Positions 43,199 to 46,176 of a stretch of DNA of 64,000 nt are shown here, in pieces. The stretch is taken from assembly GCF_021800405.1 (NCBI RefSeq), contig NZ_CP084550.1:1550001-1614000 (forward strand), written 5' to 3'. Both the position numbers and the translations under genes were made by a program. A model generated the notes under the pieces. That model was not told the DNA's origin, did not search any database, and worked only from the letters and a program-made list of their open reading frames with translations. Within the stretch, counting starts at the first letter, position 1. The number at the start of each line of letters is the position of its first letter. The DNA is from Arthrobacter sp. FW306-07-I (GTDB taxonomy: Bacteria > Actinomycetota > Actinomycetes > Actinomycetales > Micrococcaceae).

Positions 43199-43221
43199 GA
43201 CTGATTTCCCAAATATCAGTC
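43199..43221. promoter_or_regulatory. Inverted repeat upstream of the SatD-like gene
   Basis: GACTGAT and ATCAGTC, perfect 7-bp arms with a 9-nt AT-rich spacer; about 9 bp upstream of the -35 element. Candidate operator. Confidence 0.6.
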
Positions 43222-43225
43222 AAAT

Positions 43226-43258
43226 GTGATTGATTCACTGGCATCAGCCATCTATGGT
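43226..43258 (+). promoter_or_regulatory. Promoter of SatD-like gene with palindrome over the -35
   Basis: -35 TTGATT (43230-43235), 17-bp spacer, -10 TATGGT (43253-43258), then 6 nt and the ATG at 43265: a leaderless promoter. GTGA-TTGAT-TCAC (43226-43238) surrounds the -35, so a bound protein would block polymerase. Confidence 0.6.
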
Positions 43259-43264
43259 TGAGAA

Positions 43265-44020
43265 ATGTTCGTCATGACCATCGACCAGCGGGGAAGTACC
43301 GGCGGCCAGGACCTCGTCCCGGACCTTCTCGCCCGGATTGCCGCGCTGCAACCGTCCGGAACGGAGCAGACGGTCTTCGAACGTACCGTGGGTGATGAAG
43401 TCCAGGGGGTAGTGCCCAACCCTTCCGTCGTCGTGGAGATTGCCCTCCATGCACTCCGCTTCGGTCGCTGGTACGTGGGGATCGGCGTCGGAACTGTCTC
43501 CCTGGCTCCAGGCGCCAGCCCCCGCCAAGGAACCGGGACTGCGTTTGTCGCCGCCCGCAAGGCAGTTGAGCTGGCCAAGGCCGCCGGGCCGCAGGTGCCG
43601 TTGTCGGTGGTGCCGGGCATCATGGCGAAGACCGGCGGTGTCCCCGCCGGGGAGGGGAGCCAGGCATGCGCAAATGCGGAGGCGGTGCTCCGGCTGCTCG
43701 GCCGGCTTGTCCAGGACCGCACGGAGGCCCAGTGGCGGGTGGTGGATGCCCTGCGCCGCCTGGATGAAGGCCGCCTGGATGGAAGCCGCCTGGGTGCCCG
43801 CAGCCCGGGACCGGGCCGCCACGGAAGCCAGAAGCAGGTGGCGCTTGAACTCGGCATCTCGGAACAGTCGGTGAGCCGTACCGTGCTTCGGTCCGGGTGG
43901 CAGGAAGAATGGGCAGCCAGGCCCGCTGCGGCGATGCTTCTGGGCTTTGCGAACTCGCAGATTAACGGCCCCCTCAAAGACGACCGTGATGCAGACGACC
44001 CCAACGAAGGAGACAGGTGA
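43265..44020 (+). CDS. SatD-like protein fused to a helix-turn-helix domain
   Basis: 251 residues, cytoplasmic. The N-terminal 130 residues resemble SatD: acidic Asp7 (VMTIDQRGS), VGDEVQG at 42-48, and RFGRWYVGIGVGTVS then GTGTAFVAARKAVELAK. The two acidic points and order of elements recall palm/class-III-cyclase-like folds, but catalysis is unproven. A repeat-coded linker (RRLDEGRLDGSRLG) leads to a C-terminal HTH (QKQVALELGISEQSVSRTVL). Likely a sensor-regulator acting on its own promoter palindromes. Coupled by overlap to a SatE-like membrane protein. Confidence 0.75.
   Translation: MFVMTIDQRGSTGGQDLVPDLLARIAALQPSGTEQTVFERTVGDEVQGVVPNPSVVVEIALHALRFGRWYVGIGVGTVSLAPGASPRQGTGTAFVAARKAVELAKAAGPQVPLSVVPGIMAKTGGVPAGEGSQACANAEAVLRLLGRLVQDRTEAQWRVVDALRRLDEGRLDGSRLGARSPGPGRHGSQKQVALELGISEQSVSRTVLRSGWQEEWAARPAAAMLLGFANSQINGPLKDDRDADDPNEGDR
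43755..43799 (+). repeat. 15-bp tandem repeat (3 units) in the SatD-like gene
   Basis: Units begin GCCGCCTGGATG; they encode the LDEGR/LDGSR/LGARS linker between the SatD-like and HTH parts. Confidence 0.8.
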
Positions 44021-44565
44021 CCGCACTTTGGGTGGCAGTGGCCCTGGTAGTGGCCGGCTTCGCCGGCTGGCCGGTGACGGCGTTGGTGTTCAAGCTCGCG
44101 CGGACCATCGACGACCGCGCGGACGCTGCGAAGGCGGCGGATGCAGCCCGCAAGGCCGAACAGGATCCCGCGGGCGACGTTACCGTGGACGACACCCCTG
44201 CCGACGCCCCGGGGGCTGCCCTTGGAACAGCAGGCGGCGCAGCCGGCCAGGCTGTGGACGATGAGCTGACCGCCCCGCCTGTCCAGCCGCCGTCGGACGC
44301 GCCTGCCGGGCCGGCGCCCCCTACCCAGCGCATCCTGCGCGGGGGTGCCATCATTGGCGTACTGGAGCGGCTGGGCGTCTGCCTCGCCATCCTTACCGGG
44401 CAGCCCGTGGCCATCGCCTACATCGTTGCCATCAAGGGCCTGGGCAGGTTCGCCGAGCTGAAGGAAACGCCGGTGGCAGCCGAGCGCTTCATCATCGGGA
44501 CGCTCACGTCGATGCTCTGGGCGGCCGGAACCGCTGCCGCCGTCAAAGTCCTCTTCCTGCACTAG
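44017..44565 (+). CDS. SatE/DUF3307-like membrane protein
   Basis: 182 residues. One N-terminal helix (2-25), an Ala/Asp/Pro-rich cytoplasmic linker (30-105) and a C-terminal region like the end of DUF3307/SatE proteins: GAIIGVLERLGVCLAILTGQ, IAYIVAIKGLGRFAELKETP, ERFIIGTLTSMLWAAGTAAA. It starts GTG inside the stop of the SatD-like gene, matching the satD-satE pairs of other bacteria. Role unknown; in streptococci the locus relates to acid tolerance. Confidence 0.7.
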   Translation: MTALWVAVALVVAGFAGWPVTALVFKLARTIDDRADAAKAADAARKAEQDPAGDVTVDDTPADAPGAALGTAGGAAGQAVDDELTAPPVQPPSDAPAGPAPPTQRILRGGAIIGVLERLGVCLAILTGQPVAIAYIVAIKGLGRFAELKETPVAAERFIIGTLTSMLWAAGTAAAVKVLFLH

Positions 44566-44681: not shown

Positions 44682-44975
44682 ATGACAGTTTTTGCCGTTG
44701 AGTACGTTTATGCCGCCAGCTCCACTGAAACCCGCAACGAGGTCCGGCCCGCGCACCGGGAATGGACCGCGAACCTGGCACAGGACGGCGTCATCGTAGC
44801 CAGCGGCCCGTACGGTGACGGTGCCGGTGCCCTGCTGATCTTCAAGGCCTTGGATGAAGCCGCCCTCAACTCGATCCTCAAGCAGGACCCGTTCGCCGGA
44901 GCCGGTGTGATCGCCGGAACGCGCATCACGGAATGGTCACCGGTAACCGGCATGCTGGCCGGGATTTCCGCGTAG
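44682..44975 (+). CDS. YciI-family protein
   Basis: 97 residues, YCII fold (ferredoxin-like). [30 protein letters not shown] with the conserved His, [19 protein letters not shown] and DPFAGAGVI are typical. YciI proteins are small dimers, some with dehalogenase or dehydratase-like roles; substrate unknown. Independent leaderless promoter. Confidence 0.9.
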
Positions 44976-45009: not shown

Positions 45010-46176
45010 GTGACCTCGGTCAGCCTGGGAATGCCGTCAGCACCACCGCCCGTCCTCGCGCCCCGCCGCAAGACGCGCCAGATTAAAGTCGGCTCGGTAG
45101 GCGTAGGGTCTGACTACCCCATCAGCGTGCAGTCCATGACCACCACGCCCACCACGGACATCAACGCCACCCTGCAGCAGATCGCTGAACTGACTGCGTC
45201 CGGCTGCGACATCGTCCGCGTCGCCTGCCCGTCCGCCGATGACGCCGAAGCGCTGCCCATCATCGCCCGGAAGTCCCAGATCCCCGTCATCGCGGACATC
45301 CACTTCCAGCCCAAGTACGTCTTCGCAGCCATTGAAGCCGGCTGCGCTGCGGTGCGCGTGAACCCGGGAAACATCCGTAAGTTCGACGACCAGGTCAAGG
45401 AGATCGCCGCCGCGGCGAAGGACCACGGTACCTCCATCCGCATCGGCGTGAACGCAGGCTCCCTGGAACCGGGCATCCTGAAGAAGTACGGCAAGGCCAC
45501 TCCGGAGGCACTGGTCGAGTCGGCGGTCTGGGAAGCCTCACTGTTCGAGGAGCACGGTTTCCACGACTTCAAGATTTCCGTCAAGCACAACGACCCCGTG
45601 GTGATGGTGGCCGCCTACGAGATGCTCGCGGAAAAGGGTGACTGGCCCTTGCATTTGGGCGTCACCGAAGCCGGCCCCGCCTTCCAGGGGACCATCAAGT
45701 CCGCCACGGCGTTCGGCGCGCTCCTGTCGCGGGGTATCGGTGACACCATCCGCGTGTCCCTGTCCGCGCCGCCGGTGGAGGAGATCAAGGTCGGCAACCA
45801 GATCCTCCAATCGCTGAACCTGCGGCCCCGCAAGCTGGAAATCGTGTCGTGCCCGTCATGTGGCCGTGCCCAGGTGGACGTGTACACTCTGGCGGAACAG
45901 GTCACCGCCGGGCTCGAGGGGATGGAAATTCCGCTGCGCGTGGCGGTCATGGGCTGCGTCGTGAACGGCCCCGGCGAGGCGCGTGAAGCGGACCTTGGTG
46001 TTGCATCAGGCAACGGCAAGGGCCAGATCTTCGTTAAGGGCGAGGTCATCAAGACTGTTCCCGAGAGCGCAATTGTTGAGACACTGATCGAAGAGGCTAT
46101 GCGTATCGCGGAAGAGATGGGGGAGGCCGATGGCGAAGATGCTGTCAAGGGTAGCCCCGTGGTTAGCGTCTCGTAG
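45010..46176 (+). CDS. ispG: 4-hydroxy-3-methylbut-2-enyl-diphosphate synthase
   Basis: 388 residues; MEP pathway enzyme that reductively opens methylerythritol cyclodiphosphate. TIM-barrel N-terminal part ([20 protein letters not shown]) and C-terminal iron-sulfur part with cluster ligands in [11 protein letters not shown] and [11 protein letters not shown] plus a Glu in GEAREAD. GTG start with AAGGAG upstream. The end overlaps the GNAT gene by 47 nt. Confidence 0.98.

Follow-up and report, generated by a model that had tools for sequence, protein, structure and literature searches.

One of the closest described counterparts of the locus considered here is the SatD family (PF16264), known from the Streptococcus sat operon. 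Canonical satD of S. pyogenes is reported to be essential in transposon screens, yet it occurs in 178 of 249 genomes (PMC11323703). Such an essential yet accessory gene would suit the role of restraining a harmful partner, but the observation concerns canonical SatD, which belongs to another group than the protein described below. In the open-licence literature, covered mainly through titles and the starts of abstracts, we found no functional study of SatD or SatE. Class III cyclases such as Rv1900c, Rv1264 and Ma1120 resemble our SatD, itself known from its sequence and a model, in predicted fold and in two aligned metal-type aspartates. They differ from it in that SatD has an aromatic residue at the presumed transition-state Asn and a fused DNA-binding helix-turn-helix (HTH). 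Some mycobacterial proteins, Rv0386 among them, join a class III cyclase domain to an HTH, as SatD does in its predicted build, and they carry an ATPase module besides. A further relative in organization is Panoptes, also a two-gene operon of a palm protein and a membrane protein, in which OptS constitutively makes cyclic dinucleotides that keep the membrane effector OptE inactive (PMC12657218, PMC12657230). OptE comprises two transmembrane segments and a soluble beta-rich nucleotide-binding domain (PMC12657218), whereas the SatE model has no such domain; OptS is not described there as having an HTH, whereas SatD has a predicted one.

The DNA analysed, called the window, is a stretch of 64,000 nucleotides from Arthrobacter sp. 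FW306-07-I. The satD-like gene lies at 43265-44020 on the plus strand and codes for 251 amino acids, with the stop codon TGA at 44018-44020. Homologues bear out this reading frame, which a preliminary description made from the sequence alone had proposed, and the protein contains all motifs named there, i.e., Asp7, VGDEVQG (with G43-D44-E45-V46-Q47) and GIGVG. The satE-like gene (44017-44565, plus strand, 182 amino acids) starts with a GTG that overlaps the satD stop (GTGA). When start positions were assigned by an automatic start rule, satE began with the third base of the codon preceding the satD stop in 76 of 142 non-redundant loci, the window among them. The gene order is dxr, rseP, satD-like, satE-like, yciI-like (44682-44975), ispG (45010-46176), GNAT-like and proS, where the flanking genes are named by us from their sequences.

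The pair had been described as inserted between rseP and ispG, and it indeed sits between rseP and yciI/ispG. A window-type copy was found in 45 of 60 same-genus genomes, a count which includes split matches (such as G007, G031, G051 and G052). In all 15 congeners without a copy, the rseP-ispG gap measures 371-457 nt vs 1882 nt in the window, yciI is kept, and neither SatD nor SatE has a match. In 34/34 window-type loci, SatD is followed by a SatE match, which is partial in one of them (L027) at a contig end. Because the empty sites are intact and SatE always follows, satDE is an accessory two-gene unit with a fixed place in the genus. The suggested search in other genomes confirmed that the gene pair is real and conserved. 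Our A1 SatD profile matches in 174/297 genomes of the order and 66/246 of the class, weak and orphan copies counted, and PF16264 in 25/396 genomes of the phylum. In other families, the neighbours include efp/nusB and aroQ, truB/ribF, tyrS, yebC, fur, and DUF559 (20 proteins, 13 loci); hence, the address of satD differs between families. In several families, the pair or its relatives recur beside efp, nusB or aroQ (L034, L035, L036, L037, L039, L129 and L131), a recurrent housekeeping address.

Two further observations on copies were made within the genus. A second, shorter SatD paralogue with Asn7 has neither a SatE nearby nor an array (L031:5319-5915; G000:C1:192333-192914, minus strand), and similar copies occur in most of the same-genus genomes searched. 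In Arthrobacter sp. Hiyo4 (L049:4225-4887 and L110:2998-3660), satD is seemingly frame-shifted in the N-domain, as two overlapping frames match the profile.

We read satDE as a self-regulated operon and give this reading a probability of about 0.6: SatD would repress through an array of half-sites in front of its gene, its palm domain would serve as a nucleotide/metal input, and SatE would be the restrained output.

By Pfam's own rule, the window SatD is not a member of PF16264, as it scores 11.5 bits over residues 36-102 and the cut-off is 29. A relative that can be aligned with it (L040) reaches 30.2 bits over profile positions 9-195 of 211, a single profile retrieves both window-type and canonical SatD, and nine invariant columns are common to the two. 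Hence, the window SatD is a divergent relative connected to the family through intermediates. It shares with the canonical protein the palm and HTH build, the invariant columns and a SatE downstream, which was found in 14 of the 19 canonical loci that had sufficient downstream sequence. It differs in its sub-cut-off score and in a SatE without the DUF3307 half. The preliminary description pointed out the joining of a SatD domain to an HTH. This joining is not special, because palm and HTH in one protein are equally true of normal SatD and the Pfam SatD match of L040 already spans the HTH.

The C-terminal HTH itself is predicted as described, at residues 185-210 (43817-43894, plus strand) with helices 185-196 and 200-210, on the basis of the structure model and profile matches to HTH proteins; the Pfam HTH matches are weak. 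Pfam MarR_2 gives 16.4 bits (E 0.011) against the window SatD, below its cut-off of 27. In public databases, homologues (e.g., P0006, P0029 and P0055) go under the name "MarR family transcriptional regulator," which we consider doubtful for the window-type group. The likeness to MarR consists in an HTH, whereas SatD scores below the cut-off, has an additional palm domain, and is predicted to lack a wing since the model contains no strands past residue 117.

In SatE, profile matches and the model indicate a conserved C-terminal membrane module at residues 105-182 (44329-44562, plus strand). The gene had been called SatE/DUF3307-like, of which the overlap with satD and the SatE C-terminal half stand, whereas the DUF3307 domain does not: a Pfam search of the window SatE gave no match, PF11750 (DUF3307) included. 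A profile grown from the window SatE matches the C-terminal part of DUF3307-bearing proteins. One of these (L142) carries the SatE module at residues 182-257 (E 5.0e-25) and DUF3307 at 19-131 (E 1.4e-14). The SatE model (mean pLDDT 83.9) consists of helices and a disordered linker only, with no soluble nucleotide-binding domain, and a fold search with it gave no convincing match.

The N-terminal domain of SatD (residues 1-120; 43265-43624, plus strand) is predicted with high confidence to be a palm like that of class III nucleotide cyclases, and it contains both metal-type aspartates, D7 and D44. The assignment draws on an AlphaFold2 model of the domain, Foldseek, VIA and a profile match to 1ybt; in Foldseek, no match of the model reached E ≤ 0.001. 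Of the two metal aspartates in the cyclase domain of Rv1900c, the first aligns with Asp7 (codon 43283-43285, plus strand) and the second with D44, within the codons for G43-D44-E45-V46-Q47 (43391-43405, plus strand); both positions are conserved. The predicted fold thus agrees with the earlier remark that the two acidic motifs recall a cyclase-like palm. R98 is kept in 129/131 non-redundant SatE-linked loci, and position 94 is F or Y in 127/131. We take position 94 to match the transition-state Asn of class III cyclases by reading FVAAR against the motif NxAAR; the alignment with the Rv1900c cyclase domain is one residue off there and stops before the transition-state Arg.

The conservation of these residues goes with the presence of SatE. 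D7, S11, G43, D44 and E45 are present in 130/131 non-redundant SatE-linked loci, and the remaining locus, first scored as a loss of the Asp pair, is actually unaligned in its N-terminal part. Q47 is also near-invariant wherever SatE is linked. Of 14 core SatD copies without SatE, 4 retain D7, 9 retain D44 and 4 retain both. A copy counted as "without SatE" if the profile matched nowhere on its strand in the next 2600 nt downstream and no less than 1000 nt of that sequence was available; two core loci lacking downstream room were left out of the comparison. The unlinked copies without D7 show two residue patterns, either Asn7 (the orphan paralogue type) or Ser/Pro7 together with loss of D44. 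Independent losses of D7 and D44 are therefore few, judged by residue pattern rather than by a tree. On a separate note, three loci (L190, L194 and L263) keep both aspartates and a strong array, but a search of roughly 2 kb found no SatE; either SatE is elsewhere in these genomes or satD and satE are separable.

A palm of this kind in front of a membrane protein brings to mind a guard of the Panoptes type, in which the palm would be an active nucleotidyl cyclase or polymerase, continuously supplying a product that keeps SatE inactive. SatE would be freed when either SatD or this product is lost, and the HTH with its array would set the dose. The two-gene layout, the class III/GGDEF/mCpol-like fold and the five residues present in 130/131 loci are what such a guard would show, and the reportedly essential yet accessory satD of S. 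pyogenes points the same way (PMC11323703). In the Foldseek list of the SatD model, the Panoptes mCpol structure (9pd0) has rank 22 (probability 0.91), with class III cyclases ahead of it. On the other side, the SatE model lacks a soluble nucleotide-binding domain, and the position that we match to the transition-state Asn is aromatic in 127/131 loci. A PADLOC search of the window pair gave no match, the neighbours in the loci examined are housekeeping genes, and control is already accounted for by the HTH and its own operator. Hence, we consider a guard of this type unlikely.

Equally doubtful in our estimate is a plain homeostatic autorepressor, in which the palm does no more than support dimerisation, SatE is a membrane protein like any other and no signal is passed. 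It would explain why copies without the Asp pair persist with their HTH (L041, L046, L290, L292 and L293), and why L041 is still array-positive (p 0.005), but not why D7, S11, G43, D44, E45 and Q47 are near-invariant wherever SatE is linked. All five of these relatives have lost both metal-type aspartates and have no SatE nearby; L041 adjoins an elongation factor P gene.

The putative −10 element TATGGT (43253-43258, plus strand) lies 6 nt before the ATG, as the preliminary description had it. TANNNT is conserved at −12 to −7 in 91/95 window-type and 173/233 SatE-linked loci, with a background of 0.56%. The putative −35 element TTGATT (43230-43235, plus strand) precedes it at 17-nt spacing and is also conserved in position. 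A strict sigma-70 scan upstream of satD gave no promoter, and the −10 call rests on conservation. Since a Shine-Dalgarno-like motif precedes satD in few loci (17/233 SatE-linked) and TANNNT is fixed so close to the start, we read this as a conserved satD promoter, probably a leaderless one.

Two operators had been drawn at this promoter. The perfect GACTGAT-N9-ATCAGTC exists at 43199-43221, and RRCTGAT-N9-ATCAGYY occurs at this single place in the 4.56-Mb genome. As a conserved operator unit, however, it fails, because the N9 spacing is found in 1/95 window-type loci and N8 in 50/95. The second element, GTGA-N5-TCAC around the −35 (43226-43238), is present as described, but it occurs in 0/94 other window-type loci and, as the window's own copy is the only one among 95, we judge it to be chance. 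The GACTGAT palindrome is instead part of a larger array of alternating 6-bp half-sites with a 14-bp period. Counting upstream from satD, half-site 1 is GTTGAG (43257-43262, plus strand), whose end is separated from the ATG by 2 nt. Half-site 2 (43243-43248, minus strand, ATCAGC on the plus strand) and half-site 4 (43215-43220, minus strand, ATCAGT on the plus strand) point the other way. Between these lies half-site 3, ATTGAT (43229-43234, plus strand), which is found there in 77/95 window-type loci and inside which the −35 falls. Half-site 5, ACTGAT (43200-43205, plus strand), is 15 nt from half-site 4, i.e., with one extra base. With its half-sites at these positions, the array overlies both promoter elements, −35 and −10, and the spacer between them. 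In other genera, an equal array with different letters (GCTGAT, GTTGAT, CTTGAT, CTTGCA or GTTGTG) stands before satD.

The period was assessed with four consecutive half-sites in the best phase at periods of 8-21 (14 tested), and p values were obtained against dinucleotide shuffles. Where periods tied, the longer one was taken, equally for real and control rows, and the half-site register had been fixed after inspection of the sites. From 277 loci without same-place repeats, 159 were kept after removal of proteins below 150 aa, upstream regions below 110 nt and near-copies. Period 14 was best in 103/131 non-redundant SatE-linked core loci, with p ≤ 0.05 in 107/131. Among 785 control segments taken 300-900 nt away, it was best in 26. 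An array score of 23 was reached by 91/131 real loci vs 10/785 control segments. Roughly one in five SatE-linked loci has a weak array or none (24/131 above p 0.05). Nor is the array confined to copies with SatE: among the 14 non-redundant core copies without it, five have p ≤ 0.05 and period 14 is best in eight. Canonical SatD with SatE differs from the window-type group, in which the array is clear, as p ≤ 0.05 was obtained in only 4/10 of its loci.

A single half-site pair is unremarkable in the window (1 match vs 0.69 expected at up to one mismatch). No second array was found in the window's genome, where half-site pairs elsewhere are isolated. The orphan paralogues of the genus (L031-L033) have no array by inspection, and L031 and L032 none by the test either. 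Upstream of canonical-type satD of another family (L139, L140, L143, L145, L147 and L150), we noticed GAAG/CTTC inverted repeats, which are perhaps an operator of different geometry. What appears new is this phased array of operator sites, which is conserved and goes together with a cyclase-like SatD and, for the most part, with SatE.

Position 205 in the predicted recognition helix (Arg205 in the window; codon 43877-43879, plus strand) and the half-site's first base vary together. The set comprised 99 loci with array p ≤ 0.05, a usable phase and a majority first base; both the residue-205 trait and the first-base rule were chosen after viewing the sites. Where residue 205 is basic, the first base is G/A in 50/50 loci; where it is non-basic, the first base is C in 37/49, leaving 12 exceptions among the 99. 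An earlier tree was built from loci with array p ≤ 0.02 and retained the HTH; the later one used residues 1-165 with the HTH removed. On this HTH-free tree, residue and base change in the same sense in about 5.9 of 7 independent pairs and in the opposite sense in none (median p 0.03, range 0.016-0.125). No other SatD column shares as much mutual information with the first base as column 205, at 0.60 of 0.95 bits with the next column at 0.48, in a calculation that ignores kinship. As the half-site letters track residue 205, SatD is likely the reader of the array; we regard the case for SatD binding as good but not final. That another regulator reads the array while SatD acts elsewhere is highly improbable: the weak arrays of some loci and the 12/99 exceptions would fit, but the array precedes satD in many families despite the differing address, its letters follow residue 205, the orphan paralogues lack it, and no other array was found in the genome.

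In the self-regulated operon that we favour, the SatD HTH would bind the alternating, 14-bp-spaced half-sites over the −35, spacer and −10 of its own promoter. Binding at this place would repress, rather than activate, satD and the overlapping satE. Nucleotide and metal binding or turnover in the palm would alter the assembly of SatD on the array, and SatE, a small membrane protein, would be the output held in check by SatD, possibly a costly or harmful one. Since converging and diverging half-sites are equally spaced, we infer that SatD may assemble cooperatively, as a chain along the DNA. The self-regulated two-gene module of the preliminary description is thus upheld in part, by the array on its own promoter and the residue-205 covariation, whereas of the two operators drawn there one belongs to the larger array and the other is judged to be chance. 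Overall, its observation was partly confirmed and its interpretation is partly supported.

A bolder version, which we think improbable, makes SatD a DNA-bound nucleotidyl cyclase or polymerase that forms a chain on the array and whose nucleotide product keeps SatE silent. If this were true, losing SatD or the nucleotide would both derepress satE and release SatE, which would amount to a double-locked guard system. Such a system would be hidden under the name "MarR family" across actinobacteria, with canonical SatD-SatE as its other form. For the family, the analysis offers SatD a likely fold class and a likely operator of defined geometry, together with a predicted specificity residue at position 205, and the partnership with SatE is predicted to depend on the metal Asp pair of SatD.
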